40,584 nt of DNA from Deltaproteobacteria bacterium (lineage in GTDB: Bacteria; Desulfobacterota; Desulfarculia; JACQYL01), in assembly GCA_016208165.1 (NCBI GenBank), contig JACQYL010000020.1, forward strand, positions 1 through 40,584, read 5' to 3'. The notes beneath the pieces were generated by a model. It ran no database searches, was not told the origin of the DNA, and was given only the letters and a program-made list of their open reading frames with translations. Position numbers and translations under genes: made by a program. This document shows, piece after piece, positions 1 through 35,814 of the stretch (positions are counted from its first letter, which is position 1; every line of letters starts with the position of its first letter).

Positions 1-1149
1 CACCACTTCATCCAGCCGGTGGATGTTCAGCTCGTCCGGTACGAGCAGGGGGAAGGAATGGCAGCCTTCGTCCTCGTCACACACCACGAGCACTACGCTC
101 CGGCCCGTCGAGTTGGTGTCCATCCAGAGCACCAGGCGGTTGTTAAAATTAGAGATGGCGCCGCCGGTGGGATTGCGGAAGAAACGACCGAACAGCATCA
201 TGCCGCCGCGATCCTCGTCAATAAAACCTTCGCCGCCGTCGTAGGGCAGTTGGTCACATGACGGATTCCTACCCAGCCAGCTATCGTCGCTGGTCACGGC
301 CTTGCCGGTAGTCAACAGGGACGCGTTCAAACAGGCCGTAGCGTCGAATCGTTCGTACACAAGTCCTTCTAAGAACTCGTCCTGGCTGCAGTCCCAAAGC
401 AATGAGGTATAAGGACCGGCGACATTAGGAGCAGGATCGGACGGGTGTCCAAAAAAATACAACCACCACCAGGGCCGGTTCCAGAAATCGGCGGAAAAGG
501 AGAGCATGAAGGCCAGTTCCATGCTGTTGGCCTCTAAATAGGCGCTTTCCACGGACACCATGGCGTAGCCGTCCGTGCGGCCGTCCAGCAGATCCACTAC
601 ATAGACCCAACCGCCCAAAACGTTCAGATACGCATGGGGATAGTTCAGTTCGTACGGCTTGGATGAGCCGACGGGGGTCCAAACCACGGTAGCGGTCCAA
701 TAACCGCGATAGCGCTCGACTTCGACGCCGTCGACGGTCACTTTTTCCGTAATCTGAGATCTCTGAGCGGAAGCCATGCCGTCACCGATCGTGTTCTCGA
801 TAATGTCCCGGATGCTGGCGTCGGACCACACGTCCCAGGGCGAAAGCTGGAGGTTCTTGTCCCACACGTGGTTGCTGTTCACGTCCCAGATGATGAGGTG
901 AACGCGATACGAGTTACCCGGGTCCGCTCCAAGGTCGGTCGTGGACATGTTGACAATGAGGGGCAGCACGTTGTCCGTTCCGTTCTTATCGATGTCGAAC
1001 CACCCCATCACCATAGAGCCGGTGGTGGGGTCGGGAGAGCCGAAGGCGCCAGAGGCAAGGCCTCCGTAGGCATCGGCACAATGGTTAGCCCCCATGGCGA
1101 ATGAGGCCAGTAATGCGACGACCGTGAGCGTCTTCTTGATGTTTTTCAT
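1..1149 (-). CDS. Secreted array-family protein, copy A (C-terminus beyond window)
   Basis: First 383 codons of an array paralogue; the frame is open from the ATG at 1149 to base 1, where it still encodes the conserved HRLDEVV segment, so about 120 C-terminal residues lie outside. The N-terminus (MKNIKKTLTVVALLASFAMG) is a signal peptide. Then come the family blocks: GSPDPTTGSMVMGWFDIDKN, an IIWDVNSNHVWDKN block, RPWWW, GPYTSLLWDCSQDE, VYERFDA, TSDDSWLGRNPSCDQ and GRFFRNPTGG. The family is unknown to me; export and conserved cysteines point to a secreted or cell-surface protein. Its upstream spacer differs from those of the other copies: it contains a paralogue 3' remnant, and the expected -10 is degenerate, so expression is doubtful although the reading frame is intact. 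Confidence 0.85.
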   Translation of the reverse strand, partial: MKNIKKTLTVVALLASFAMGANHCADAYGGLASGAFGSPDPTTGSMVMGWFDIDKNGTDNVLPLIVNMSTTDLGADPGNSYRVHLIIWDVNSNHVWDKNLQLSPWDVWSDASIRDIIENTIGDGMASAQRSQITEKVTVDGVEVERYRGYWTATVVWTPVGSSKPYELNYPHAYLNVLGGWVYVVDLLDGRTDGYAMVSVESAYLEANSMELAFMLSFSADFWNRPWWWLYFFGHPSDPAPNVAGPYTSLLWDCSQDEFLEGLVYERFDATACLNASLLTTGKAVTSDDSWLGRNPSCDQLPYDGGEGFIDEDRGGMMLFGRFFRNPTGGAISNFNNRLVLWMDTNSTGRSVVLVVCDEDEGCHSFPLLVPDELNIHRLDEVV

Positions 1150-1211
1150 AACCACCACCCTAAGTCTCCTTTCTCGAAGTTCAGACGGATGAATGATCAA
1201 ACAACAACCTT

Positions 1212-3447: not shown

Positions 3448-4847
3448 TTAAAACATTTGCTGCAAGAACAGGATCGGTTCGGCGTCCAACACCTCGAGGG
3501 TGGAGGGATCGCCCAGGATGCACTTGCGGATCAACGGGAAGATGGCTCCCCAGCTCTCTTGCGCGGTACCCAGACCTTCGTTGGTGGTCCAACCCAGAAT
3601 CTGCAGGGCGTTGCCGAAAGGCACGGTGTTGCGATCATGCGCTGCTTGGCGCCCGGATTTTCGATCTGGCGGGTATGGAAGTAAATGAAGCCGGCCAGCA
3701 CGTCGGCCACTACCTCATCCAACCGGTGGATGTTCAGCTCGTCCGGAACGAGCAAGGGGAAAGAGTGGCAGCCTTCGTCTTCATCGCATACTACGAGTAC
3801 AACGCTCCGGCCCGTGGAGTTGGTGTCCATCCAGAGGACCAGGCGGTTGTTGAAGTTCGATATGGCGCCGCCGGAAGGATTACGGAAGAAACGTCCGAAC
3901 AGCATCATGCCGCCGCGGTCTTCGTCTATAAAGGCTTCGCCGCCGTCATAGGGCAACTCGGAGCAAGAGGGATTGCGGGCCAGCCAGGTATCGTCACTGG
4001 TCACGGCCTTACCCGTGGTCAAAAGAGATACGTTCAGACAGGCCGTCGCATCGAAACGTTCGTAGACAAAACCGAAGGTAAATTGTTCCTGGCCAAACGG
4101 TTCGTCCTGGCTGCAGTTCCAGAGCAAGGAGACATAGGGACCCGTGATGTTGCCCGTCAGATCTCCGAAATTATACGTCGGATCCAGCCACCACCAGGGA
4201 CGGTTCCAGAAGTCGGCGGAAAAGGAGAGCATGAACGCCAGTTCGATGCTGCCGGCAAGCAGGAAGTCGGATTCCACGGACACCATGGCGTAACCGTCCG
4301 TACGGCCGTCCAACAAATCCACTACGTAGACCCAGCCGCCGAGTACGTTCAGATAGGCGTGAGGATAATTCAGTTCATACGGCTTGGAGGATCCCACCGG
4401 AGTCACGACCGTGGTAGCGGTCCAGTAGCCGCGATAACGCTCGACTTCCACGCCGTCGATGGTCACTTTTTCCGTGATCTGGGCTCTTTGAGCTGAAGCC
4501 ATGCCGTCACCGATGGTATTTTCGATGATGTCCCGGATACTGGCGTCGCCCCACACGTCCCACGGAGTGAGCTCGAGGTTCTTGTCCCACACGTGGTTGC
4601 TGTTCACGTCCCAGATGATGAGGTGTACACGCCAACCCGTGCTTCCACTCAAATTTGTGGTGGACATATTGACGATGAGGGGCAGCACGTTGTCCGTGCC
4701 GTTCTTGTCAATGTCAAACCAGCCCATCACCATGGAACCGGTCGTGGGATCCGGCGAACCGAAAGCCCCGGAACCAGCCCAGCTCGTAGCCCCCATACTG
4801 AAAGCGGCCATCACGGCGATGACCCAAAACGCAACCTTCTTTTTCAT
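3448..4847 (-). pseudogene. Secreted array-family protein, copy C, frameshifted by a deletion of about 110-125 bp
   Basis: ATG at 4847 (MKKKVAFWVIAVMAAFSMGA, signal peptide) after a GGGGAGG ribosome site. The family sequence is intact through ENPGAKQRMIA, then jumps near 3630 out of frame into the DNA for TVPFGNALQILGW. About 124 bp are missing relative to copy H (109 relative to copies of the E type); neither is a multiple of three. The shifted frame ends at 3531, giving a 438-residue product with a foreign tail. The original frame continues open to its stop at 3448-3450 (tail LDAEPILFLQQMF), so the loss is recent. The patch after RPWWW shares TYNFG with copy H, a possible sign of exchange between copies. 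Confidence 0.85.
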
Positions 4848-5218: not shown

Positions 5219-5271
5219 ATCCCCGGCTCCGGGGATGTGAAAAGACGCCGGGCCCTTTCGAGGGCCCGGTG
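5219..5271 (-). terminator. Tandem stem-loop terminators after copy D
   Basis: First hairpin 5246-5271 (core arms ccgggccct/agggcccgg, loop ttcg) followed on the minus strand by a short T-run; second hairpin 5219-5236 (arms atccccgg/ccggggat). Confidence 0.7.
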
Positions 5272-5304: not shown

Positions 5305-7221
5305 TTACTTTTTCAGCAGCTCGAGCTTTTCTTGAAGCTCCCTGTTGGTCTTTTCCAACTCCTCGATGCGGGCGGTCTGTGCGTCCAGCTTTCGGTTGAG
5401 TTCCTGGATAGCGGCAAATGCCACGCCGCCGGCGTCCACAGCGTGGATGGTCCGATCGTCGCCCAGGCCGAAGGCCGCATGAAAATCCTGGGCCATGGGT
5501 CCCATATGCCTGTATCCGGTGCTGTCTTGTTTGTAGTTCCATGTGCTGATGGGCAAATCGGCCACCCTGGCCAGCACGTCTCCACTTTCCACGTTTCCGA
5601 AATTCTCTTTCATATTTCGGTCGCTGATGACGATTACGTCCGGAATATGCCTGAGGAAATAAAACAGCTGATCGATATCGGCGTCATACACGGAGTCCAA
5701 CACCTCGAGGGTGGTGGGATCGCCCAGGATACATTTGCGGACCATGGGGAAGATGGCGCCCCAGGTTTCGGCAGCGGTACCCACACCCTCATTGGTGGTC
5801 CAGCCCAGAATCTGGAGGGCGTTGCCAAAAGGCACGCTGTTCTGGCCTCCAGCGTCGTTGCAGTTCACGTTGACGGGCAGGAAGTTCAGGATTCCGTTGA
5901 CGACACAATTATACAGATCCGAATCCGCAGGCGCTACTCCGGAATCGGCCACGCTTCTCCAGTAGGAGATCATGCGCTGCTTGGCGCCCGGGTTCTCGAT
6001 CTGACGCGTATGGAAGTACACAAACCCCGCGAGTACGTCGCCCACGACTTCATCCAGCCGATGAATGTTCAACTCGTCCGGCACGATCAAGGGAAAGGAG
6101 TGACACCCTTCCTCTTCGTCGCACACCACGAGGATCACGCTGCGGCCGGTCGAGTTGGTGTCCATCCAGAGGACCAGGCGGTTGTTGAAATTGGATATGG
6201 CGCCGCCGGTGGGATTGCGGAAGAAACGTCCGAAGAGCATCATGCCGCCGCGGTCTTCGTCAATAAATGCTTCGCCGCCATCATAGGGCAGCTGGTCACA
6301 CGAAGGATTGCGGGCCAGCCAGGTATCGTCGCTGGTCACGGCCTTGCCCGTGCTCAACAGCGAGGCATTCAAACAGGCCGTGGCGTCGAACCGTTCGTAC
6401 ACGTTTCCGACCTCAACGAAAATCGTGTCCTGAAAGGGGGATGGCGCGAAAAAGACCTCGTCCTGGGCGCAATCCCAAAGAGCGGAAAAATATGCTCCTA
6501 TCGTGTTGCCCGTAAGGTCGCCAATGCCGTAAGTGGTTCCGATCCACCACCAGGGTCGATTCCAGAAATCGGCGGAGAAGGAGAGCATGAAGGCCGTCTC
6601 CATCGTGTTGGCCGCCAGGATCGAGCTTTCGACGGACACCATGGCGTAGCCGTCCGTTACGCCGAGAGGAAGATCCACCACGTAGACCCACCCGCCGAGC
6701 ACGTTCAGGTACGCATGGGGGTAGTTCAGTTCGAACGGTTTGGAGGATCCTACGGGAGAAAGGACCACGGTGGCGGTCCAGTAGCCGCGGTAGCGTTCGA
6801 CTTCAACTCCCTCGATGGTTACCTTCTCGGTGATCTGGGCTCGCTGGGCGGAGGCCATACCGTCACCGATGGTATTCTCGATGATGTCGCGGATGCTGGC
6901 GTCGGTCCATACGTCCCAGGGAGAAAGCTGAATGTTCTTATCCCATACGTGGTTGCTGTTGACGTCCCAGATAATAATATGCACCCGGTATGGGTTCGCG
7001 GGCGCGGTCCCGAGATCCTGCGTGGACATGTTCACGATGATGGGCAGTACGTTCTCCGTCCCGTTTTTGCCAATGTCGAACCAGCCCATTACCATGGACC
7101 CCGTGGTGGGATCCGGCGAGCCGAACGCGCCCGACGCCAGCACATAGGCCGAGCTTGTCGATGCCGGTGCGCAAACGGCCAAAACGAAGATGACCATGAG
7201 CGAAAGCTTCATCGGTTTCAT
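5305..7221 (-). CDS. Secreted array-family protein, copy D, with C-terminal S74 chaperone domain
   Basis: 638 residues; ATG at 7221 after GAGGGGGAAG, signal peptide within residues 1-25. Residues 30-510 are the array family. Instead of the short tail of the other copies, residues 511-638 carry an intramolecular chaperone of the endosialidase type (peptidase S74). Ser533 and Lys538 in SDRNMKENFG match the known Ser-Lys pair five residues apart that cuts just before the Ser. The segment continues through LPISTWNYK, RHMGPMAQDFHAAFGLG and DAGGVAFAAIQELN into a heptad-like coiled coil (602-638). In known S74 proteins this domain trimerises, assists folding and cleaves itself off, so D is predicted to form a trimer and release its last ~106 residues. 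The Ca-loop-like DIDKNGTDN of the siblings is DIGKNGTEN here. Function of the family part is unknown. Confidence 0.9.
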   Translation of the reverse strand: MKPMKLSLMVIFVLAVCAPASTSSAYVLASGAFGSPDPTTGSMVMGWFDIGKNGTENVLPIIVNMSTQDLGTAPANPYRVHIIIWDVNSNHVWDKNIQLSPWDVWTDASIRDIIENTIGDGMASAQRAQITEKVTIEGVEVERYRGYWTATVVLSPVGSSKPFELNYPHAYLNVLGGWVYVVDLPLGVTDGYAMVSVESSILAANTMETAFMLSFSADFWNRPWWWIGTTYGIGDLTGNTIGAYFSALWDCAQDEVFFAPSPFQDTIFVEVGNVYERFDATACLNASLLSTGKAVTSDDTWLARNPSCDQLPYDGGEAFIDEDRGGMMLFGRFFRNPTGGAISNFNNRLVLWMDTNSTGRSVILVVCDEEEGCHSFPLIVPDELNIHRLDEVVGDVLAGFVYFHTRQIENPGAKQRMISYWRSVADSGVAPADSDLYNCVVNGILNFLPVNVNCNDAGGQNSVPFGNALQILGWTTNEGVGTAAETWGAIFPMVRKCILGDPTTLEVLDSVYDADIDQLFYFLRHIPDVIVISDRNMKENFGNVESGDVLARVADLPISTWNYKQDSTGYRHMGPMAQDFHAAFGLGDDRTIHAVDAGGVAFAAIQELNRKLDAQTARIEELEKTNRELQEKLELLKK

Positions 7222-7703: not shown

Positions 7704-9227
7704 TCATTCAGGAAACAGCCAAGGTCTGGCGTCCAATACCTCGAGGGTGGACGGATCGCCCAGGATGCACTTCCGGATCAACGGGAAGATGGCTCCCCAG
7801 CTCTCGGCAGCCGTTCCCAGACCTTCGTTGGTGGTCCAGCCCAGAATCTGAAGCGCATTGCCGAAAGGCGTCGTGTTCTGAAGTCCCGGGTCCGAGCAGT
7901 TTACGTTGACGGGCAGGAAGTTCGCAATGGTGTTGGCGGCGCAGTTATACAGAGCCGAATTGGCCGTGACCACGCTTCTCCAATAGGTGATCATGCGCTG
8001 CTTGGCGCCCGGATTTTCGATCTGACGGGTGTGGAAATAGACAAAGCCCGCCAGTACATCGGCCACCACCTCATCCAACCGGTGGATGTTCAGCTCGTCC
8101 GGAACGAGCAACGGAAAGGAGTGGCAGCCTTCGTCCTCGTCGCACACCACCAGAACCACGCTCCGGCCCGTCGAATTGGTGTCCATCCAGAGCACCAGGC
8201 GGTTGTTGAAGCTGGATATGGCTCCACCTGACGGGTTTCGGAAGAAACGACCGAAGAGCATCATGCCGCCGCGGTCTTCGTCTATAAAGGCTTCGCCGCC
8301 GTCATAGGGGAGCTGGTCACAGGATGGATTCCGGGCCAGCCAGGTATCGTCGCTGGTAACGGCCTTGCCGGTGGACAGAAGCGACGCGTTCAGGCAGGCC
8401 GTAGCGTCGAACCGTTCATAAAAGTTCCCATTGACATCAAAAATGGGTTCGAAAAAGAACTCGTCCTGGCTGCAGTCCCACAAGAAGCCGACATATGGTC
8501 CGGTGATATTTCCCGTGATCGCGTCGGGGGCAGCGGTAAAATCCCACCACCACCAGGGGCGGTTCCAGAAATCGGCGGAAAAAGACAGCATAAACGCCAG
8601 TTCGATGCTTCCGGCCCACAGCTCGTCGGTTTCCACGGACACCATGGCGTAGCCGTCCGTACGCCCGTCCAGCAGATCGACCACATAGACCCAGCCGCCA
8701 AGAATGTTGGCATAGAGGTGGGGGTAGTTCATCTCGTAAGGTTTGGACGATCCTACGGGGACCGATACTCCCGTGGCGGTCCAGTAACCGCGATAGCGCT
8801 GGACCTGGACGCCGTCGACGGTCACGGTTTCCGTGATCTGGGCTCGTTGAGCGGAAGCCATACCGTCACCGATGGTATTCTCGATGATGTCGCGGATGCT
8901 GGCGTCACTCCACACGTCCCACGGCGAGAGCTGGAGATTCTTGTCCCAGACGTGGTTGCTGTTCACGTCCCAGATGATGAGGTGCACGCGATAGGGGTTC
9001 CCGGGGGCCGCTCCCAGATCCGTGGTGGACATGTTCACGATGACGGGCAGCACATTGTCCGTGCCGTCCACGTCGATGTCGAACCAGCCCATGACCATGG
9101 ACCCGGTGGTGGGATCGGGAGTACCGTACGAGCCTGTAGCATAATCAAACTGGGCCCAGCTTACGGTTGCCATCGCGCAGGCGAGCAGGATGGCCGTTGT
9201 TGCGAACATACACTTGGTCTTTTTCAT
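7704..9227 (-). CDS. Secreted array-family protein, copy E
   Basis: 507 residues, intact. Signal peptide 1-25 (..ATVSWA, cut before Gln26). Family blocks: GTPDPTTGSMVMGWFDI 35-51 followed by a DxDxDG-type loop that resembles a calcium site, NSNHVWDKNLQLSPWDVW 89-106, LGGWVYVVDLLDGRTDGYAM 176-195, RPWWWW 223-228, NITGPYVGFLWDCSQDE 240-256, YERFDATACLN 270-280, TSDDTWLARNPSCDQLPYD 291-309, GRFFRNPSGGAISSF 326-340 and a hydrophobic tail (LDARPWLFPE). The mature part has eight cysteines (252, 278, 303, 362, 368, 429, 444, 487), an even number consistent with disulfides. It carries the shorter SVVTANSALYN variant, as B does. I do not recognise the family. Confidence 0.9.
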   Translation of the reverse strand: MKKTKCMFATTAILLACAMATVSWAQFDYATGSYGTPDPTTGSMVMGWFDIDVDGTDNVLPVIVNMSTTDLGAAPGNPYRVHLIIWDVNSNHVWDKNLQLSPWDVWSDASIRDIIENTIGDGMASAQRAQITETVTVDGVQVQRYRGYWTATGVSVPVGSSKPYEMNYPHLYANILGGWVYVVDLLDGRTDGYAMVSVETDELWAGSIELAFMLSFSADFWNRPWWWWDFTAAPDAITGNITGPYVGFLWDCSQDEFFFEPIFDVNGNFYERFDATACLNASLLSTGKAVTSDDTWLARNPSCDQLPYDGGEAFIDEDRGGMMLFGRFFRNPSGGAISSFNNRLVLWMDTNSTGRSVVLVVCDEDEGCHSFPLLVPDELNIHRLDEVVADVLAGFVYFHTRQIENPGAKQRMITYWRSVVTANSALYNCAANTIANFLPVNVNCSDPGLQNTTPFGNALQILGWTTNEGLGTAAESWGAIFPLIRKCILGDPSTLEVLDARPWLFPE

Positions 9228-9531: not shown

Positions 9532-11064
9532 TCAATCGAAGAACCCAAAGAAGGCAGGAGCAGAGTCCAGCACTTCCAACGTGGCCGGATCGCCGAGGAT
9601 GCATTTGCGGAGCAACGGGAAGATGGCTCCCCAGCTCTCTTGCGCGGCGCCCAGACCTTCGTTGGTGGTCCAGCCCAGAATCTGCAAGGCATTACCGAAA
9701 GGCACCGTGTTCTGGAGCCCTACGTCCGAGCAGTTCACGCTCACGGGCAGGAAGTTCGCAATGGTATTGGCGGCGCAGCTATACAGGGCCGAATTGGCCG
9801 TGGCCACACTTCTCCAGTAGGCGATCATGCGCTGCTTGGCGCCCGGATTTTCGATCTGACGGGTGTGGAAGTAGACAAAGCCCGCCAGTATGTCGGCCAC
9901 TACTTCATCCAACCGGTAGATGTTCAGCTCGTCCGGAACGAGCAACGGAAAGGAATGGCAGCCTTCGTCCTCGTCGCATACCACCAGAACCACGCTTCGA
10001 CCGGTGGAATTGGTGTCCATCCAGAGCACCAGGCGGTTGTTGAAATTGGAGATGGCGCCGCCGGTGGGATTGCGGAAGAAGCGGCCGAACAGCATCATGC
10101 CGCCGCGCTCTTCGTCTATAAAGGCTTCGCCGCCGTCATAGGGCAGTTGGTCACAGGAAGGATTTCGGGCCAGCCAGGTATCGTCGCTGGTTACGGCCTT
10201 GCCGGTGGACAAAAGGGACGCGTTCAGACACGCCGCGGCGTCGAATCGTTCGTACACCGTACCGTCAATGCCTTCAATGGGCGAGAAAAACACCTCGTCC
10301 TGACTGCAGTCCCAGAGCCAGGAGTCGTACGGACCGGTGATATTACCGGTGATGGTCCCATAGGGGGCGGAGTAATCCCACCACCACCAGGGACGATTCC
10401 AGAAATCGGCGGAAAAGGAGAGCATGAACGCCAGCTCCATGCTGTTGGCCCACAGAATCGCGCTTTCCACGGCCACCATGGCGTACCCGTCCGTGCGCCC
10501 GTCGGCCAGATCCACCACATAGACCCAGCCGCCGAGAATATTGGCGTACAAATGCGGATAGTTCACCTCAAACGGTTTGGAGGATCCGACGGGTATGGCA
10601 ACCGTCGTGGCCGTCCAGTAACCGCGATAGCGTTGGACCTGGACGCCGTCGATGGTTACCGTTTCCGTAATCTGAGCTCGTTGAGCGGAAGCCATACCGT
10701 CACCGATGGTATTCTCGATGATATCGCGGATACTGTCGTCGGACCACACGTCCCATGGCGAGAGCTGGATGTTCTTGTCCCACACGTGGTTGCTGTTCAC
10801 ATCCCAAATGATGACGTGCAGACGATAGGGGTTCCCTGGGGCCGCTCCCAAGTCCGTGGTGGACATGTTCACGATGAGGGGCAGCACGTTGTCCGTTCCG
10901 CCAACGGAAATATCAAACCAGCCCATCACCATGGAACCGGTGGTGGGGTCCGGGGAACCAAATGCGCCGTTGGCGTCATCAAAGACTTGGGCCCAGCCAG
11001 CGGTTCCGATTGCACAGATGGCTGCTATAGCCATGGCTACGAACATAAGCTTGGTTTTCTTCAT
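9532..11064 (-). CDS. Secreted array-family protein, copy F
   Basis: 510 residues from the ATG at 11064 (MKKTKLMFVAMAIAAICAIG, signal peptide ending ..AGWAQ), chosen over in-frame ATGs at 11139 and 11079 because GGGAGGAAG stands just before it and because MKKTK is the family start. All family blocks are present, including RPWWWW, NITGPYDSWLWDCSQDE, YERFDAAACLN and the ATANSALYS variant. The tail is LDSAPAFFGFFD. The leader peptide is very like that of copy B, so these two are close relatives at the 5' end. Confidence 0.9.
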   Translation of the reverse strand: MKKTKLMFVAMAIAAICAIGTAGWAQVFDDANGAFGSPDPTTGSMVMGWFDISVGGTDNVLPLIVNMSTTDLGAAPGNPYRLHVIIWDVNSNHVWDKNIQLSPWDVWSDDSIRDIIENTIGDGMASAQRAQITETVTIDGVQVQRYRGYWTATTVAIPVGSSKPFEVNYPHLYANILGGWVYVVDLADGRTDGYAMVAVESAILWANSMELAFMLSFSADFWNRPWWWWDYSAPYGTITGNITGPYDSWLWDCSQDEVFFSPIEGIDGTVYERFDAAACLNASLLSTGKAVTSDDTWLARNPSCDQLPYDGGEAFIDEERGGMMLFGRFFRNPTGGAISNFNNRLVLWMDTNSTGRSVVLVVCDEDEGCHSFPLLVPDELNIYRLDEVVADILAGFVYFHTRQIENPGAKQRMIAYWRSVATANSALYSCAANTIANFLPVSVNCSDVGLQNTVPFGNALQILGWTTNEGLGAAQESWGAIFPLLRKCILGDPATLEVLDSAPAFFGFFD

Positions 11065-11140
11065 AACTTCCTCCCACATCTCCTTTCTAAGAAAACAGAA
11101 GGTTAACGAGAAACACGACGTTCTCCTCACTACCTGCAAC

Positions 11141-11539: not shown

Positions 11540-13108
11540 CTACGTGGTCGGCAACAGATAAGGCACGGCGTCCAGGACTTCAAGGGTCGCCGGATCGCCG
11601 AGAATGCACTTGCGGATCAGCGGGAAGATGGCTCCCCAGCTCTCTTGCGCGGTACCCAGACCTTCGTTGGTCGTCCAACCCAGGATCTGAAGCGCATTGC
11701 CGAAGGGCACGGTGTTCTGGAGTCCTGCGTCGCCGCAGTTTACGTTGACGGGCAGGAAGTTCACGATGCCGTTGGCAACGCAGTTATACAGATCCGAATC
11801 CACAGGCGCTACTCCGGAATCGGCCACGCTTCTCCAGTAGGCGATCATGCGCTGTTTGGCGCCCGGATTCTCGATCTGACGGGTGTGGAAGTAGATAAAT
11901 CCGGCCAGTACGTCGGCCACCACTTCATCCAACCGGTGGATGTTCAACTCGTCGGGAACGATCAGGGGGAACGAGTGGCACCCCTCGTCTTCGTCGCATA
12001 CCACGAGCACCACGCTGCGTCCCGTGGAGTTGGTGTCCATCCAGAGCACCAGTCGGTTGTTGAAATTGGAGATGGCGCCGCCGGAAGGATTGCGGAAAAA
12101 GCGGCCGAACAGCATCATGCCGCCGCGGTCTTCGTCGATAAATCCTTCGCCGCCGTCATAGGGCAATTGGTCGCAGGAGGGATTCCGGGCCAGCCAGGTG
12201 TCGTCGCTGGTCACGGCCTTGCCCGTGGTTAGGAGCGACACGTTCAAACAGGCCGCGGCGTCGAATCGTTCGTAGACCACAGGGAACGTCGGACCGCCAA
12301 AGAACTCGTCTTGACTGCAATCCCACAGAACGGACAGGTAGGGACCCGGAATGTTGACAAGAGGATTGAACGGGTCTTCCAACTCATTCCACCACCACCA
12401 CGGACGGTTCCAGAAGTCGGCGGAAAAGGAGAGCATGAACGCCAATTCCATGCTGTTGGCCGCCAGGACGGCGCTTTCCACGGACACCATGGCATAACCG
12501 TCGGTGCGGCCGTCAAGGAGATCCACCACGTAGACCCAGCCGCCCAGTACGTTCAGGAAGGCATGCGGATAGTTGAGTTCATACGGTTTCGAGGAACCCA
12601 CCGGCGCGTAGACGGCCGTAGCGGTCCAATAGCCGCGGTAGCGCTCGACCTGAACGCCGTCGATGGTCACGGTTTCTGTAACCTGGGCTCGTTGAGCGGA
12701 AGCCATGCCGTCGCCAATGGTATTTTCGATGATGTCGCGAATGCTGGCGTCGCCCCACACGTCCCACGGCGAGAGTTGGAGGTTCTTGTCCCACACGTGG
12801 TTGCTGTTTACGTCCCAGATGATCAGATGCACCCGATAGGAGCCGGTCTCACCGGCAGCGGCTGTTCCCAGATCCGTGGTCGACATGTTTACGATGACGG
12901 GCAGCACATTGTCCGTCCCGTTCTTGTCAATGTCGAACCACCCCATTACCATGGAGCCGGTGGTGGGATCCGGAGAACCGAAGGCGCCGGAAGCCCGGCG
13001 TACATCGAGGAATGAGTCGAGCACCATGGGCTGGGCCCAACTCTGGGTGGCCATTAAGCAGGCCGCCACGACGGCCATCACAGCGAACATAACCCTGATT
13101 TTGTTCAT
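11540..13108 (-). CDS. Secreted array-family protein, copy G
   Basis: 522 residues, intact, with the longest N-terminal extension: after the signal peptide (MNKIRVMFAVMAVVAACLMA, ..SWAQ) there are about 15 extra residues before GAFGSPDP. The family blocks are all present. The patch around NIPGPYLSVLWDCSQDE uses NIPGPY as in copy B rather than NITGPY. It has the longer SVADSGVAPVDSDLYN variant shared with D and H. The tail is LDAVPYLLPTT. The start has a GAGGGGGAAGG ribosome site. Function unknown; export is the only property I can support. Confidence 0.9.
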   Translation of the reverse strand: MNKIRVMFAVMAVVAACLMATQSWAQPMVLDSFLDVRRASGAFGSPDPTTGSMVMGWFDIDKNGTDNVLPVIVNMSTTDLGTAAAGETGSYRVHLIIWDVNSNHVWDKNLQLSPWDVWGDASIRDIIENTIGDGMASAQRAQVTETVTIDGVQVERYRGYWTATAVYAPVGSSKPYELNYPHAFLNVLGGWVYVVDLLDGRTDGYAMVSVESAVLAANSMELAFMLSFSADFWNRPWWWWNELEDPFNPLVNIPGPYLSVLWDCSQDEFFGGPTFPVVYERFDAAACLNVSLLTTGKAVTSDDTWLARNPSCDQLPYDGGEGFIDEDRGGMMLFGRFFRNPSGGAISNFNNRLVLWMDTNSTGRSVVLVVCDEDEGCHSFPLIVPDELNIHRLDEVVADVLAGFIYFHTRQIENPGAKQRMIAYWRSVADSGVAPVDSDLYNCVANGIVNFLPVNVNCGDAGLQNTVPFGNALQILGWTTNEGLGTAQESWGAIFPLIRKCILGDPATLEVLDAVPYLLPTT

Positions 13109-13538: not shown

Positions 13539-15089
13539 TTAATTAAGAATGTTGTCAAAGAAGAACGGAATGGGCACTGCATCCAATACTTCCAGCGTAG
13601 ACGGATCGCCGAGGATGCACTTGCGGATCAGCGGGAAGATGGCTCCCCAGCTCTCTTGCGCGGTACCCAGACCTTCGTTGGTGGTCCAACCCAGAATCTG
13701 CAGGGCGTTGCCGAAAGGCACGGTGTTCTGGAGTCCTGCGTCGTTGCAGTTCACGTTGACGGGCAGGAAGTTCACGATGCCGTTGGCGATACAGTTATAC
13801 AGATCCGAATCCGCGGGCGCTACTCCGGAATCGGCTACGCTTCTCCAGTAGGCGATCATGCGCTGTTTGGCGCCCGGATTTTCGATCTGGCGTGTGTGGA
13901 AGTAAATGAAACCGGCCAGCACGTCCGCCACTACCTCATCCAACCGGTGGATGTTCAGTTCGTCCGGAACGAGCAAGGGGAAGGAATGGCAGTTTTCGGC
14001 TTCGTCACACACTACGAGTACTACGCTCCGGCCCGTGGAATTGGTGTCCATCCAGAGGACCAGGCGGTTGTTGAAGTTCGAGATGGCGCCGCCGGAAGGA
14101 TTGCGGAAGAAACGTCCGAACAGCATCATGCCGCCGCGATCTTCGTCTATAAAGGCTTCGCCGCCGTCATAGGGCAACTCGGCGCAGGAGGGATTACGGG
14201 CCAGCCAGGTATCGTCGCTGGTCACGGCCTTGCCCGTGGTTAACAGAGAGGCGTTCAAGCACGCCGTTGCATCGAACCGTTCGTACACATTGCCGGCCCA
14301 TCCGAAGTCGGGTGAGAAGAAGATCTCGTCCTGACTGCAATTCCAGAGCCACGAAGCGTAGGGGCCCGTAATATTGCCGACCACGCCGAAATTATACGTA
14401 TAATCGATCCACCACCAGGGACGGTTCCAGAAGTCGGCGGAGAATGACAGCATGAAAGCCAGTTCCATGCTTCCGGCCCACAGCTCGGCGCTTTCCACGG
14501 ACACCATGGTATAACCGTCGGTGCGGCCGTCCAGCAGATCCACCACGTAGACCCAACCGCCGAGAACGTTGGCGTACAGATGGGGGTAGTTGAGTTCATA
14601 CGGTTTGGACGAACCCACGGGAACCAGAACCGTGGTGGCGGTCCAATAGCCGCGATAACGTTCGACTTGCACGCCGTCGATCGTTACTGTTTCGGTGATC
14701 TGGGCTTTTTGAGCGGAAGCCATGCCGTCACCGATGGTGTTCTCGATGATGTCGCGAATGCTGGCGTCGGCCCAAACGTCCCAGGGAGACAGTTTGAGGT
14801 TCTTATCCCATACGTGGTTGCTGTTCACATCCCAGATGATGAGGTGAACGCGATAGGTGTTGCTCGCAGCGGATCCCAGATCCGTTGTAGACATGTTGAC
14901 AATCAGGGGCAGGACGTTGTCCGTGCCGTTCTTGTCGATGTCAAACCAACCCATCACCATGGAGCCCGTGGTGGGATCGGGGGAACCGAAAGCGCCGGAA
15001 GCGTTGTCAAACTGCGCCCAGCTCGTGGCTCCCATTAGGCAGGCGGCCATCACGGCTATCGCCATAAGCGTAACCTTGGTTTTTCTCAT
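13539..15089 (-). CDS. Secreted array-family protein, copy H
   Basis: 516 residues from the ATG at 15089 (MRKTKVTLMAIAVMAACLMG, ..SWAQ signal peptide), preceded by GGGGAGGAAAAC; upstream in-frame ATGs lack such a site. All family blocks are present. It shares TYNFG and NCSQDE with copy C, and VADSGVAPADSDLYN with D. CDEAENCHS replaces the usual CDEDEGCHS. The tail is LDAVPIPFFFDNILN. It is the first array gene in the direction of transcription. Confidence 0.9.
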   Translation of the reverse strand: MRKTKVTLMAIAVMAACLMGATSWAQFDNASGAFGSPDPTTGSMVMGWFDIDKNGTDNVLPLIVNMSTTDLGSAASNTYRVHLIIWDVNSNHVWDKNLKLSPWDVWADASIRDIIENTIGDGMASAQKAQITETVTIDGVQVERYRGYWTATTVLVPVGSSKPYELNYPHLYANVLGGWVYVVDLLDGRTDGYTMVSVESAELWAGSMELAFMLSFSADFWNRPWWWIDYTYNFGVVGNITGPYASWLWNCSQDEIFFSPDFGWAGNVYERFDATACLNASLLTTGKAVTSDDTWLARNPSCAELPYDGGEAFIDEDRGGMMLFGRFFRNPSGGAISNFNNRLVLWMDTNSTGRSVVLVVCDEAENCHSFPLLVPDELNIHRLDEVVADVLAGFIYFHTRQIENPGAKQRMIAYWRSVADSGVAPADSDLYNCIANGIVNFLPVNVNCNDAGLQNTVPFGNALQILGWTTNEGLGTAQESWGAIFPLIRKCILGDPSTLEVLDAVPIPFFFDNILN

Positions 15090-15234
15090 GTTTTCCTCCC
15101 CAAGTCTTCTTTTCATTCGATCAAACATACCATGAAACACAACAACAGACGAAACTTCAATATGAACGGCTCCTTCTCCTTCCTTGCCTCTCTATCTGCT
15201 CCTAACACCCCCCTTCTCCACTTTTTCACTTCTT

Positions 15235-20011: not shown

Positions 20012-23000
20012 CTACATCTTCCTGACGTTGACCATAAAGGCTTTGGTTTCCGGAATGCGGGTATTGGGGTCTCCTACCGACGGCGTCAGCAGGTTGGCGG
20101 AATCACCTCCGTCCTTCGGGTGGACCCAACCATAATGCCAGGGCAGCCCAACCTGATGGACGGTCATGCCCTGGATCTTCAATGGGCGAAAACGAATGGT
20201 CACTATAGCCGTGGCCCTGATGCCGCCTCGAGCGGATTCCACAAAGACCAGTTCGCCGTTTTGAATGCCCCGGAGCGTGGCCAACTCGGGACTCATTTCC
20301 ACGAAGACTTGGGGTTGAGCCTCGATGAGCCAGGGCTGCCAGCGCGTCATAACGCCGGTCTGCCAATGCTCGGAAACGCGATACGTGGTGCCCACGAAAG
20401 GATATTTCGGATCGCAGGTTTTGAATATGTCCGCGGCGGTTGTGTACATGGGCGTCACCGGATTCATGCGTTGGGGCGACATCAGATTCTGCTCCACCGG
20501 ACATTCCAGGGGTTCATAGTGCTCGGGAAAAGGTCCGTCCACGCGTCCCGGGCCAAAGAGTTGAGCAAAGCCATCGGGCCTCATAATGAATGGATATTTG
20601 CTCCCGGGGTTGAGGGCGCCGTCGGCGTTTTTCAACGGCGGCCACGGTCCGTCGGGTACGTCTCCGATCCAGCCGCCTTTGCCCCCGCCGGCGTTGGGGT
20701 CCCAGGCAATGACCGGATGTTCCGGATCCCAGGGCTTTCCGTATGGATCCACAGAGGCCCGGTTGTATATGATCCGTCGGTTGACCGGCCAGCACCAGGC
20801 CCACTCGAGGTTGAGGCCGATGCCGGATTGCTCCTTTGTGCGGCGGGCCGCCATGTTGCCTTTTTCGGTGTAGGAGTTGCAGTAGAGCCAGTTGCCGCTG
20901 CTGGTGGACCCGTCATCTTGGAGAAAAGCGAAACTGGGAACCAGTTCGCCTTTTTTGAAGGTCTTGTCCTTTATGGTTATGTCTCTCAAGAAATATCCGT
21001 TGATCTCTTTGGCCATTTTGTGCGAGTCGAAACGTCCGTCCGTGGTGTAGTCCCATTTCAGCTTGAGGATGGGTTCGGGAAACACGGCGGATTTGTCGGC
21101 CTCGTACAACGAACGAATCCTGGTAAACAGGCCACAGAGGATGTCGCCGTCGGGTCGGGCTTCTCCGGGCGGCTCCGCCGCCTTGTAACGCCACTGTGAC
21201 CAGCGGCCGCTGTTCGTTATGGACCCTTCCTTCTCGACGGAAACGGCGCACGGGAGCATAAAGACCTCGGTTTTGACCTTCTCGGGATTCATGCCCGGCC
21301 CTTTCCAGAAGGATCCGGTTTCGTTGTCGAAGATATTGACACTGACCATCCAGTCCAGTTGCCCGAGGCCCGTGCGCACCTTGTTGGCGTTGGCCCCCGA
21401 GCACGCAGGATTCTGACCCCAAGCGAAGAAGCCGGAAAACTCGCCTCTGTACATGGCGTCGAACAGGTCCAACCACGTATAGTTCTTTCCGTCGTCCAAC
21501 TTGGGCATCCAGGAGTAGCCGAACTCATTTGCCGCGGAGGCATTCTCCCCGAAATAGGATTTCAGGAGGCTCACCGAGTACTTGGGGTAGTTGCTCCACC
21601 AATTGGCGCTCATGGGGTCCTTGGTAGCGGGAGTGAACTTTTCGTTGTAGCCCTGAAGGGTCGGCAACGAGGCGCTGGGTGTTGTCAGGTATCCGGGCCA
21701 AATATGGAACAGGAGACAGTGGTCCGTAGAACCTTGAACGTTCGATTCGCCTCTCAGGGCGTTGACGCCTCCTCCGGCCACCCCCATGTTGCCCAGGAGT
21801 AGCTGGATAATGGCCATGGCGCGTATATTCTGGACGCCCACCGTATGCTGGGTCCAGCCCATGGCGTACATGACGGCGCCGGCTTTTCCTCTTTTCCCCG
21901 TGGCTGAGTAGGCCCTGTATACGGCCAGCAAATCGTTTTTCGGTGTGCCCGTTATGGCCGACACGGCGTCCGGGTTGTAGCGGCTGAAGTGTTTCTTCAA
22001 CTGCTGAAAAACACAGCGAGGATCCTGGAGAGTCTGGTCCTTGAGCGGAATTCCGTTGGCGTCTTTCTTCAAGGCCCAGCTTTTCTTGTCGTATGTGCGT
22101 TTCTCAAGGTCGTATCCGGAAAAGAGGCCCTCGCTGAAATTGTAGTCGTCGCTCACAATGAAACTCGCGTTGGTGTACTCAGCGACATATTCTTTGAAGT
22201 ATTCTTCATTTTCGATGATGTAGTTGATCATTCCGCCCAGGAAGGCGATGTCCGTGCCGCACCGGAGCGGCGCGTAGATGTCCGCCTTTGATGACGTTCG
22301 GGTAAACCTTGGGTCAACGCTAATCAGTGTGGCGCCGTTGGATTTGGCCTGCGTCACCCATTTGAAGGAGACGGGGTGGTTTTCAGCCGCATTGGAACCC
22401 ATGATAAGAATACAGTCACTGTTCTTGATGTCGATCCAGTGATTCGTCATTGCACCACGTCCGAACGACTCTGCCAGAGCCGCAACAGTGGCGCTGTGTC
22501 AGATACGCGCCTGATGCTCGATATATACCAGCCCTAGGGCGCGCATCATGGCTTGGAGCACCCAGCACTCCTCGTTGTCCAGGGCTGCGCTTCCAACGCT
22601 GGCGATGCCGTTGGTCCGATTGACCACCTGGCCGTTCGAATTCTTCCGGGTAAAACTGGCGTCTCTGCTCTTTTTGACCCGGTCCGCAATCTGCGAAAGG
22701 GCCCAGTCCCACGAAACGGCTTCCCACTGGGAGCCGTAGGGCGCGCGGTACAGAGGTCGCGTAAGTCGGTTTTCGTTATTGACCAACTGGCTCAGGGCTG
22801 CTCCCTTGGAGCAGAGAGATCCTTCATTGATGGGATGCTCGGGATCTCCTTCGATGTTGATGATTTTTCCGGCGCCCGCCTCCCCGGTGTGAACGATGAC
22901 GCCGCAGCCGACACCACAGTAGCAGCAGATGCTGGTGCTCTCCCTCGCGAACCGGATTCTTGAAGTCTGAGCGTACGACTTGATGGGTCTCAAATCTACG

Positions 23001-23074
23001 CCCAGGCCCAAGATGGCTGCGCCCGCGGCAGAAGCGGTTGTGACTTTGAGGAAGTCCCTGCGCGTGACCTTCAT
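20012..23074 (-). CDS. fdhA: Formate dehydrogenase catalytic (alpha) subunit, selenocysteine-containing
   Basis: 1020 residues when the in-frame TGA at 22499-22501 is read as selenocysteine 192 (ARI-U-HSATVAALAESFGRGAMTN, the classic FDH active site). Without recoding the gene appears as two pieces. Tat signal: Arg5-Arg6 in TRRDFLKV. [4Fe-4S] motif C50-x2-C53-x3-C57 with Cys88 in GSLCSKG. Molybdopterin-binding domains follow (GSNAAENHP, MYAMGWTQHTVG, GNMGVAGGG), then the C-terminal MoCo-binding domain (PWHYGWVHP). It oxidises formate to CO2 (or the reverse) at a Mo/W-bis-MGD centre, in the periplasm by the Tat signal. AAGGAGG precedes the ATG at 23074. It is first in the fdhA-fdhB-fdhE cluster. 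Confidence 0.96.
22460..22501 (-). promoter_or_regulatory. Selenocysteine codon with SECIS-like stem-loop
   Basis: TGA at 22499-22501 is followed 10 bases later by CUGUUGCGGCUCUGGCAG (22488 to 22471). This can fold into a stem with an apical GGCUCU loop, close in position and loop sequence to the fdhF element of E. coli (AGGUCU loop). Such an element recruits SelB. Confidence 0.8.
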
Positions 23075-32257: not shown

Positions 32258-34498
32258 ATGACAGGTTTGCTGGTGCTGGCCGCCTGGGCGTTTTTGGCCT
32301 GGCTGATCGTCAAGGCGCTTCGAAATGGATTCATCGGTCGGAAAGAAAAGACGCCGGCCGGACCCGAACCGGACGACGATATCCTTATCCGGGTGAGCGC
32401 CGGCTCGGGCGGCGACACCTACCGGATTCCGCCCGAGCCCGGGATTTCCGAGGAGTGTTGGATGTCTCCCGGCCGCGAGGTGACCGTCCAAGGCTACTCC
32501 ATTCCCGGCGGAATGATCTATGTGGGCGAGCGGTTGACCTCCCTGAACGGACATATGATCGAACCTGCTCTGATCAATCCGGCTTTACCGGTTGACGATC
32601 GTGTTTCCGATCCGGAAGGATCGTCGTTCGGCTATTGGCCCTCCTACAGTCGTATTCCTCCGCATGCGCGCGCCACGTATCTCGGGTGGCTCGCCCGGGG
32701 ACGCAAGGATCCGTATATAGGAATCGGTTATGTCTTTCTGTTTTTCTACGGCGTCGAAAGGCGATGCCTGGCGGACGCGGGGAAGTCGGAACACGCTGGG
32801 GGCGAAAGGGAGGCGCTCGGAAAGGAAGTCGAACGGCTTTTGAGTATCTATGGCAACCACCATGCGTTTCGCCGTTACGCATCCTCTTTTCTGGATTATT
32901 TGGATCTGTCTTCCGCTGCCGGTGAGAAGCCCGTAGCCCGGCAACCTCCTTCGATGCAAACTTTCCGGGAAATGCCCGCAAGACTGAAGTTCGGTCTTGC
33001 CCGGATGGCGGCCGAACGTATTCCGGTTCCCGCGGAGTGGGCCCTGACCTGGGTCCTGTCCCATCAGGAAACGAAACTGCGAACTCCCGCCAAGCGGTGC
33101 GAAGGAGAATTCCGGGCTCTTTTCAAGATCCGATATGAGGAGCGATTCGGCGAGGGGATGATGCTTGAATCCACCGGACCTCCCCTGACGCTCACGTATA
33201 AACCCGCCAGTGCGTCGTTTGGACGGGAGGTCGCCGCATCCACGCCGTTCTGTGACGTAAGTACGGCGAAGGCGCCGATTCGACCACTCGCGGAACTCGT
33301 GACGAGCTGCCAGGAAGAACTGGACGGCTACAGCCGTTTGCTGGGGAGGGAACCGGATGCCGGGGGCGGTCTTCCGGCGCTGGCTCTGTTGCCGACGCCC
33401 CTGCTTTCCCGAGCGGACATGGAGGAATCCTCCGAATTCAGAGGTTGGCTCGATGAACAGCTTGGTGGAAAGGACCTCATAGCCGCGGATGCGAGGGAAT
33501 TCGTCCGGCGTTGGCCTGTCCGGCAGGCTGATCGAATGCTCAAAAGGGAACATGTGCTTCTAGTTCAACTACTCGAGAAATGGCGTCTGGGCCTGGAACC
33601 GGATCCCCGTTTCGCGGGGCCCTGCCTGCGAGCCAAAGGGAGAGTCATGCTTTTCAGGGTAGGGGATAACGGCTCCCATGCTCCATCCGAAGAGTATCTG
33701 TCCGCCCGGATGCTGCTACATCTGGCGGTCTTGGCTTTCGGCCCGGCCGGAGGGGCTTCGGAGGATGACATGCGTTCCCTCGAGGGTTTTCTCAGCCGGT
33801 CTCTGGGATTGACCTCCGGTGAAGAGATTCGTCTGTGGGCTCATTATAAGTGGTTGCTGGATGATCCGTCGGTTTTCGGGAGAATAAGCAAGCGCGTGGA
33901 AACCCTTCCGGAGCCCGACCGCCTGAGGATCGGGCGGGCTCTAGACTCCCTGGCGTCGAGTGACGGAGGGGTTCGTCCGAGCGAGGTTTGCGTACTGACC
34001 CGGATCTACCATGTGTTGGGGCTCGACCCCGGTAAGTTCCGAATTCGAACCGATGCGCCGGCGCATCCCATCGTTCCCTGCGAGGGGATGGCGGACCTTC
34101 GAACAGCCGAGATTCCTGCCGTGCAAAGAGAAGAGACGAACGGCATCCTCCTGGACATGCATCGGTTGCGCATGATCAGGGAGGATACGGCCAAGGTTTC
34201 GGCTTTGCTTGCCGATGTGTTTTGCGAGGAAGAAGATGTCGTCACGCCGGTCGCATCACAGGAACAACTCGTCGCCGGATTGGACCTCGCCCATTCGGCC
34301 CTTCTGAAAGCGCTTGCCGATAAGGAGTCATGGCCCCGTGAGGAATTCGAGGATCTGGCCGCCCGATGGGGCCTGCTCCCGGAAGGAGCCCTTGAAATCC
34401 TCAACGAGGCCGCCTGGGACAGCGTGGGCGAAGCCTTGTGCGGGGATGAGGACCCGATCCGGCTCGATCGAACCGTACTCGAGGAGATGTTTACATGA
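32258..34498 (+). CDS. TerB-N/TerB-C domain protein with N-terminal membrane anchor
   Basis: 746 residues. Residues 3-21 are a hydrophobic helix (LLVLAAWAFLAWLIVKAL), probably holding the protein at the inner membrane with the rest in the cytoplasm. TerB-N spans about 75-230, with signature YWPSYSRIPPHARATYLGWL and GRKDPYIGIGYVFLFFYGVE (126-167). A middle region (about 430-600) contains a TerB-like helical bundle (SARMLLHLAVLAFGP). TerB-C lies at the end (LAARWGLLPEGALEILNEAA). TerB-N/TerB-C proteins are known neighbours of helicases and ATPases in tellurite-resistance-related stress and DNA-processing systems (Ter families). It has GGGAGGCGTGAC before the ATG and overlaps the next gene by ATGA. 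The exact biochemical role is unknown. Confidence 0.82.
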   Translation: MTGLLVLAAWAFLAWLIVKALRNGFIGRKEKTPAGPEPDDDILIRVSAGSGGDTYRIPPEPGISEECWMSPGREVTVQGYSIPGGMIYVGERLTSLNGHMIEPALINPALPVDDRVSDPEGSSFGYWPSYSRIPPHARATYLGWLARGRKDPYIGIGYVFLFFYGVERRCLADAGKSEHAGGEREALGKEVERLLSIYGNHHAFRRYASSFLDYLDLSSAAGEKPVARQPPSMQTFREMPARLKFGLARMAAERIPVPAEWALTWVLSHQETKLRTPAKRCEGEFRALFKIRYEERFGEGMMLESTGPPLTLTYKPASASFGREVAASTPFCDVSTAKAPIRPLAELVTSCQEELDGYSRLLGREPDAGGGLPALALLPTPLLSRADMEESSEFRGWLDEQLGGKDLIAADAREFVRRWPVRQADRMLKREHVLLVQLLEKWRLGLEPDPRFAGPCLRAKGRVMLFRVGDNGSHAPSEEYLSARMLLHLAVLAFGPAGGASEDDMRSLEGFLSRSLGLTSGEEIRLWAHYKWLLDDPSVFGRISKRVETLPEPDRLRIGRALDSLASSDGGVRPSEVCVLTRIYHVLGLDPGKFRIRTDAPAHPIVPCEGMADLRTAEIPAVQREETNGILLDMHRLRMIREDTAKVSALLADVFCEEEDVVTPVASQEQLVAGLDLAHSALLKALADKESWPREEFEDLAARWGLLPEGALEILNEAAWDSVGEALCGDEDPIRLDRTVLEEMFT

Positions 34499-35814
34499 AT
34501 AGCGCCCGTCAGATTCGACCCAGAGACCGGGACGTCGTTTTACAGTCGCTTCGGGCCGGGCTGGTACCCCGCAGAGGACTTCAGCACATACAGGTGGGAC
34601 GCGCCGGCGAGGTCGAGGCCCTTCTATGCGACATCGAGCGGATTGCCGACGGTGGATCGGCCATCCGTTTTATCATCGGCGATTATGGTGCGGGCAAAAC
34701 GTTCTTTCTGAACCTTGTCCGGTCCGTAGCACTGGAAAAGCAACTCGTTACGGCTCATGCGGACCTGACTCCCGACCGTCGCCTGCAATGTTCGGGGGGG
34801 CGGGCCCGGGCCCTGTACGCCGAACTGATGCGGAACCTATCGAGTCGCAGTAAGCCGGAAGGGGGCGCGCTTTCCGCCGTGGTGGAACGGTTCGTATCCT
34901 CGGCTCTGGGTCAGGCGCGAACCGAAGGAAGAAGGCCGGACGCAGTCATTCAGGAGCGCCTGGAAAAATTGGGCGAGATGGTGGGAGGATATGATTTCGC
35001 CCAGGTGGTGTCCGCCTATTGGAAAGGTCACGACACGGGAAACGACCGGATCAAAAGCGACGCGGTGCGGTGGTTGCGAGGGGAATTCAACGCCAGGAGC
35101 GATGCCCGCACCGCTTTGGGGGTGCGCACCATCATTGATGACGCGGGTTTCTACGACTATCTCAAATTGATGGCTCTTTTCGTGCGTCTGGCCGGCTACC
35201 GGGGGCTCCTGATCACCCTGGACGAAATGGTGAATCTGTACAAAATAAACCATTCCGGATCCAGAAACAGCAATTACGAGCAGGTCCTTCGCATTTTCAA
35301 CGACAGTCTTCAGGGAATCAGTGTGGGATTGGGTTTTTTGATGGGGGGCACTCCGGATCTTCTTTTGGATACGAGACGCGGACTTCACAGTTTCGAGGCC
35401 TTACGGTCGCGGCTGGCGCAGACGGGGTTTGTACGAGAGGGGCTGGTGGATTTCAGCGGGCCGGTATTGAACCTGGCTTCTCTCACCCAGGAAGAGATTT
35501 TCCTGCTCTTGTCCAAATTACGCGTTGTGTACGCCGCCGGCGACGAGACGAAATGCCGGTTGCCGGACGAGGCTCTGTATGCCTACATGGAACACTGCAA
35601 TCGCCGCCTGGGGGAGGCCTATTTCCGCACTCCGCGCGCCACGATAAAGTTCTTTCTGGACCTGTTGTTTATCCTGGATCAGAATCCCGGGGTTTCCTGG
35701 CGGGAATTGTTGGGCCGGCTGGAGATTCATCCCGATCCCGGACCGGCGGACGGAACGAACGAACCGGAGGAAGCGCCAAAGGAAGACGATGAGCTTGCGA
35801 CCTTCAGACTCTGA
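34495..35814 (+). CDS. BrxD-like ATP-binding protein (DUF2791 family)
   Basis: 439 residues. Walker A is GDYGAGKT (62-69) and Walker B is LLITLDE (238-244), in a P-loop ATPase of the type called BrxD in type 2 BREX phage-defence loci. PRRGLQHIQVGRAGEVEALL (about 25-44) and the later LASLTQEEIFLLLSKLR and YFRTPRATIKFFLDLL are as in that family. It likely works with the helicase encoded next: its gene overlaps the TerB gene by 4 bases and the helicase gene by 26, which implies translational coupling. No pglX, pglZ or brxC is present, so this is not a complete BREX system. What the ATPase acts on is unknown. Confidence 0.85.
   Translation: MNSARQIRPRDRDVVLQSLRAGLVPRRGLQHIQVGRAGEVEALLCDIERIADGGSAIRFIIGDYGAGKTFFLNLVRSVALEKQLVTAHADLTPDRRLQCSGGRARALYAELMRNLSSRSKPEGGALSAVVERFVSSALGQARTEGRRPDAVIQERLEKLGEMVGGYDFAQVVSAYWKGHDTGNDRIKSDAVRWLRGEFNARSDARTALGVRTIIDDAGFYDYLKLMALFVRLAGYRGLLITLDEMVNLYKINHSGSRNSNYEQVLRIFNDSLQGISVGLGFLMGGTPDLLLDTRRGLHSFEALRSRLAQTGFVREGLVDFSGPVLNLASLTQEEIFLLLSKLRVVYAAGDETKCRLPDEALYAYMEHCNRRLGEAYFRTPRATIKFFLDLLFILDQNPGVSWRELLGRLEIHPDPGPADGTNEPEEAPKEDDELATFRL

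Follow-up and report, generated by a model that had tools for sequence, protein, structure and literature searches.

Gene D, which belongs to an array of eight copies (A-H) of a single gene arranged in tandem about 1.8 to 2.4 kb apart on the minus strand of the window, ends in a genuine and complete Peptidase_S74/ICA domain. The window is the whole stretch of DNA analysed, 40,584 nucleotides that make up an entire contig (C20) of the genome of a Deltaproteobacteria bacterium (5.69 Mb in 142 contigs). The explanation that we consider best, to which as a whole we assign a probability of roughly 0.75, is that D is exported, trimerises via its C-terminal coiled coil and cleaves itself at I532-S533, and that the module responsible is specific to D within its family. 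The gene and its parts are located as follows:

5305..7221, minus strand: gene D, 638 amino acids, with a signal peptide, the orphan body common to the array, a linker, the S74 domain and a coiled coil
5626..5695, minus strand: D-specific linker of about 23 residues past EVLD, in place of the short sibling tails; a beta-stalk was not recognised in it
5308..5625, minus strand: Peptidase_S74/ICA domain and coiled coil of D, residues 533-638, with the predicted scissile bond I532-S533
5623..5625, minus strand: Ser533 codon, the expected nucleophile
5608..5610, minus strand: Lys538 codon, the dyad's expected general base, a residue that all 45 aligned domains share
5461..5502, minus strand: GPMAQDFHAAFGLG motif, residues 574-587
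5353..5370, minus strand: R618-I-E-E-L-E623, which fits the R-h-x-x-h-E trimer motif of coiled coils
5248..5269, minus strand: terminator-like hairpin directly 3' of gene D

An initial annotation had proposed that D ends in an S74 chaperone domain with a Ser533/Lys538 dyad, and both proposals held. Pfam PF13884 (Peptidase_S74) matched residues 533-584 with an E-value of 4.9e-11 and 43.2 bits against a curated cut-off of 22 bits, the translation of 7221..5305 reads S533-D-R-N-M-K538 at the dyad, and the GPMAQDFHAAFGLG motif at 574-587 and the coiled coil are likewise present. The extent given for the domain, 5305-5712, was too generous, as S74 proper spans 5625..5308 and 5712..5626 encodes the final few body residues together with the D-specific linker. 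The cleaved product of 532 residues that had been foreseen is also too long: the N-terminus of D is signal-like, with the signal peptide cut placed by eye after A25, and the expected N-terminal product is about 507 residues once that peptide is removed. Across an alignment of 45 S74 domains, the residues S, D, K, G, A, Q and one more D were invariant, with G, A and Q belonging to the GxxAQ motif that D carries as G574-P-M-A-Q578. Because D has the full set of conserved positions, a chance origin of its match is excluded. Within the bacterial S74 set, W561 was invariant and the position of Y563 was always aromatic, and the profile alignment pairs these two residues of D with Y615 and Y617 of MYRF.

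Structure predictions of D were made as a single chain, and for residues 498-638 the predicted fold had a mean pLDDT of 88.5. The best four VIA matches to the S74 model were the four solved S74/ICA chaperones, namely MYRF (7dc3, Z 7.8), endoNF (3gw6, Z 6.7), T5 fibre (4uw8, Z 6.1) and phage GA-1 (3gud, Z 5.8); these Z values all fall below 8, a range that the tool calls middling, but the top rows still exceed unrelated ones. Foldseek matched the model to 7dc3 with an E-value of 6e-4, and the profile match to the same structure had an E-value of 5e-5. The MYRF ICA domain, which is thus the best structural match to D, has the dyad S587/K592 and two aromatics near the cut, although MYRF is a eukaryotic membrane-bound transcription factor and its R590 is N536 in D. 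MYRF cannot be cleaved without S587 and K592, and Y615/Y617 assist the reaction (PMC8326128). Endosialidase NF (3gw6) shares with D the SDxxxK dyad (S911, K916), GxxAQ and the overall domain fold, but it is a viral tailspike whose long tentacle and stalk arginine serve chaperoning and cleavage, unlike D.

The coiled coil predicted to follow the S74 domain was borne out as a helix spanning residues 594-637 of the model, with a heptad core that is 80% hydrophobic and a trimer-type motif, R618-IEEL-E623. The R-h-x-x-h-E trimer motif is a defined one, and some dimers contain it too (PMC3653964); 57 of the 83 S74 tails had it, while shuffling residues within heptad positions gave an expectation of 15.9. 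On this analysis D probably forms trimers and cleaves itself. In the mechanism that we propose, D would belong to a lineage-specific tandem family, be exported and have acquired an S74/ICA module at its C-terminus. Once exported, three D chains would pair via the C-terminal coiled coil, the element that drives trimerisation in MYRF. The assembled ICA trimer would then position Ser533 and Lys538 for a cut that conserved chemistry places at I532-S533, which would release the body, about 507 residues long, and leave a trimeric chaperone remnant of 106 residues.

A second S74 domain, the only other one in the genome, lies on contig C26; the secreted protein that carries it has a bacterial Ig domain, and we saw in it no similarity to the body of D. 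The two S74 domains are 73% identical over 101 residues, and the nucleotide similarity between the genes starts at the Ser codon. With a dN of 0.19 and a dS of 1.05 between the two (dN/dS about 0.18), the module of D is, as judged by these rates, under purifying selection, which argues for a working module, and D is a real S74 fusion that probably works. The protein on C26 also belongs to a set of tandem secreted paralogues (L141:5989-9641), of which the first of three has S74 and the other two are without it. The idea that S74 is usually confined to a single tandem paralogue did not hold in general, since elsewhere the neighbours often have the domain as well.

S74 was absent from all 62 other genomes of the class and present in 29 of the 395 sampled genomes of the phylum, its own genome counted; the phylum S74 domains read out from their loci were mostly of another subtype (SDRRLK...GVIAQEV). 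This scarcity and difference in subtype suggest an external origin of the module, with either copying or two separate gains behind its two occurrences, and the tree is compatible with either. The domains of D and C26 were reciprocal best matches in 987 of 1000 column bootstraps, but the pair had a tree support of only 0.19, so that a single acquisition of the two modules is no more than suggested. When bacterial and archaeal genomes were scanned once with the two S74 modules (D and C26) as queries, 79 bacterial loci from many phyla were kept at 45-62% identity, whereas phage records reached at most 46% identity in partial matches. That S74 domains are best known from phage, as the initial annotation stated, is thus correct historically, but the subtype of D is mostly bacterial. 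Proteins of this GPMAQDF subtype (S74 45-62% identical; Chloroflexi, Planctomycetes, Myxococcota, Verrucomicrobia and others) mostly have signal-like N-termini, as D does, and in the majority the Ser is directly preceded by a strand-like pattern, W/F or G-rich, the canonical form of which is lacking in D and in the C26 protein. S74 fusions to secreted proteins are already known across bacterial phyla, and D is a further example. The module may be a bacterial S74 subtype that moves among unrelated secreted proteins, here in two unrelated tandem families, on one of the members seen in each. It is very improbable, by comparison, that the tail is a functionless relic of a prophage tail fibre fused to D by chance. 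S74 is common in phage fibres, and the PHROG matches of the S74 tail of D were virion and tail fibre proteins; the purifying selection on the module, its closer relation to bacterial than to phage domains, the metabolic or Shango defence character of the neighbouring genes scanned, none of them phage genes, and a sibling body without a PHROG match all speak against such an origin.

A triple-beta-helix stalk ahead of Ser533 was not recognised in D by a pattern count that 83 of the 91 other S74 proteins pass, a crude count whose criterion was set after the sequences were viewed, and for which the body model of D is unreliable. In the phage endosialidase, a stalk arginine participates in the cleavage reaction (PMC8326128). 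The S74 domain of D might then trimerise without cutting and hold three bodies as a permanent C-terminal bundle, in keeping with the dependence of cleavage on the stalk in phage enzymes, but we regard this as quite unlikely. MYRF cleavage uses the Ser-Lys dyad and needs the ICA trimer, not an upstream stalk (PMC8326128), so the apparent absence of a stalk need not prevent cleavage of D. Moreover, Ser and Lys are invariant in the 45 aligned domains and are kept in both D and the second copy despite a dS of about 1. A bacterial S74 protein, Bd3182 of the Bdellovibrio MAT fibres, is cut at S782, and S782A abolishes its cleavage (PMC10769870).

Self-cleavage after trimerisation, the reading that we prefer, would concern D alone among the copies of its body. 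The other members of the array are:

1..1200, minus strand: copy A, its 3' part past the contig end
1555..3121, minus strand: copy B, with an internal deletion and a frameshift; no S74 remnant
3463..4847, minus strand: copy C, with an internal deletion and a frameshift; no S74 remnant
7704..9227, minus strand: copy E, intact sibling without S74
9532..11139, minus strand: copy F, intact and without S74; frame from TTG, with an ATG some 26 codons inside
11540..13108, minus strand: copy G, intact sibling without S74
13539..15140, minus strand: copy H, intact and without S74; frame from GTG, with an ATG some 17 codons inside

As A, B and C are incomplete, D was compared with the four intact array siblings E-H and with three intact copies of the body outside the array in the same genome (on C119, C115 and C105; C84 holds the end of one more copy). 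The bodies of the intact siblings are 74-83% identical to that of D and lack S74, and none of the seven siblings scanned had a Pfam match over the cut-off. Past EVLD the sibling tails are about 8 to 15 residues long; they had been described as short and hydrophobic, and short they are, while hydrophobic holds often but not always (PRIDRLPADE in the B remnant, SPEAAVKVAE in the C105 copy). The D-to-C step exceeds the remaining steps of the array by about 350 bases, which fits the added S74 tail of D. A 34-residue C-terminal remnant of yet another array copy lies at 1372-1473, and together with the broken B and C it seems to reflect an array that is recombining or decaying, or an imperfect assembly. 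Repeat arrays do misassemble easily, and the many contigs of this genome are in keeping with that, so that D could in principle be an assembly chimera that joins an array copy to a different S74 gene. We find this barely credible, as the frame is open through the join, the linker of D is found in no sibling, D has its own terminator-like hairpin, and its 3' flank differs from that of the second S74 gene.

Elsewhere in the window, three genes at 32258-38095 match SngA, SngB and SngC of the Shango anti-phage defence (PADLOC), and a molybdopterin oxidoreductase of the formate dehydrogenase type (20012-23074, minus strand) has one in-frame TGA (context ARI*HSATVAAL) that, from its sequence, is probably a selenocysteine codon.

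The body family had no Pfam, PHROG or PDB-sequence match; weak Pfam hints under the cut-off to Ntox35 and to a steroid-CoA synthetase were taken as chance. No relatives of the body were found in GTDB genome contigs, in the 62 other genomes of the class or in plasmid records, and the 394 other genomes of the phylum gave three weak partial matches only. A search for further S74 fusions of this body, as the initial annotation had advised, found none in these sets. The same genome holds one distant relative (L018:1486-2508), whose identity of about 30% spans the N-terminal part of the array body and which may define a wider secreted family. The AlphaFold2 model of D including the body had a pLDDT of 48 overall and is unreliable for the body, and nothing fibrous was recognised in the body sequence.

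The nearest precedent for such a family is that of the MAT fibres of Bdellovibrio bacteriovorus, secreted paralogues of which 13 of 21 in one genome end in S74 (SDxxxK) and eight do not (PMC10769870). By description, however, MAT proteins form long trimeric fibres in which a beta-helix precedes S74, and the family is marked by a conserved beta-rich N-terminal domain of about 130 amino acids and a trimeric fibre, whereas the body of D is an orphan and no stalk was recognised in D. The body family of D might itself be trimeric in the MAT manner, with D as its S74 branch, and the coexistence of S74 and non-S74 members in one Bdellovibrio genome (PMC10769870) lends this some appeal; with no database match to the body, no usable model and nothing fibrous recognised, it appears unlikely. 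The earlier suggestion that the family forms trimers, or that D nucleates assembly, does not follow, given siblings without S74, no recognisable stalk and a body model that is too poor. With S74 lacking from siblings whose bodies are 74-83% identical to its own, the body evidently does without the chaperone. On the reading that we prefer, the module would serve as an assembly and quality check particular to D, and the siblings would fold without it.

One possible but doubtful extension is that S74 acts in this lineage as a movable tag for the trimerisation and release of secreted proteins that are globular and not fibrous, with no beta-helix stalk, which would place one tandem member alone in a trimeric, self-cleaving state. 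The same body occurs in eight intact copies in this genome, of which D alone has S74 and the other seven lack it, and this offers a natural comparison. Should D prove cleaved and trimeric while a sibling does not, the pair would reveal what S74 contributes to a body able to fold without it, and also whether S74 acts without a beta-helix stalk; otherwise, D would be one more S74-tailed bacterial secreted protein.
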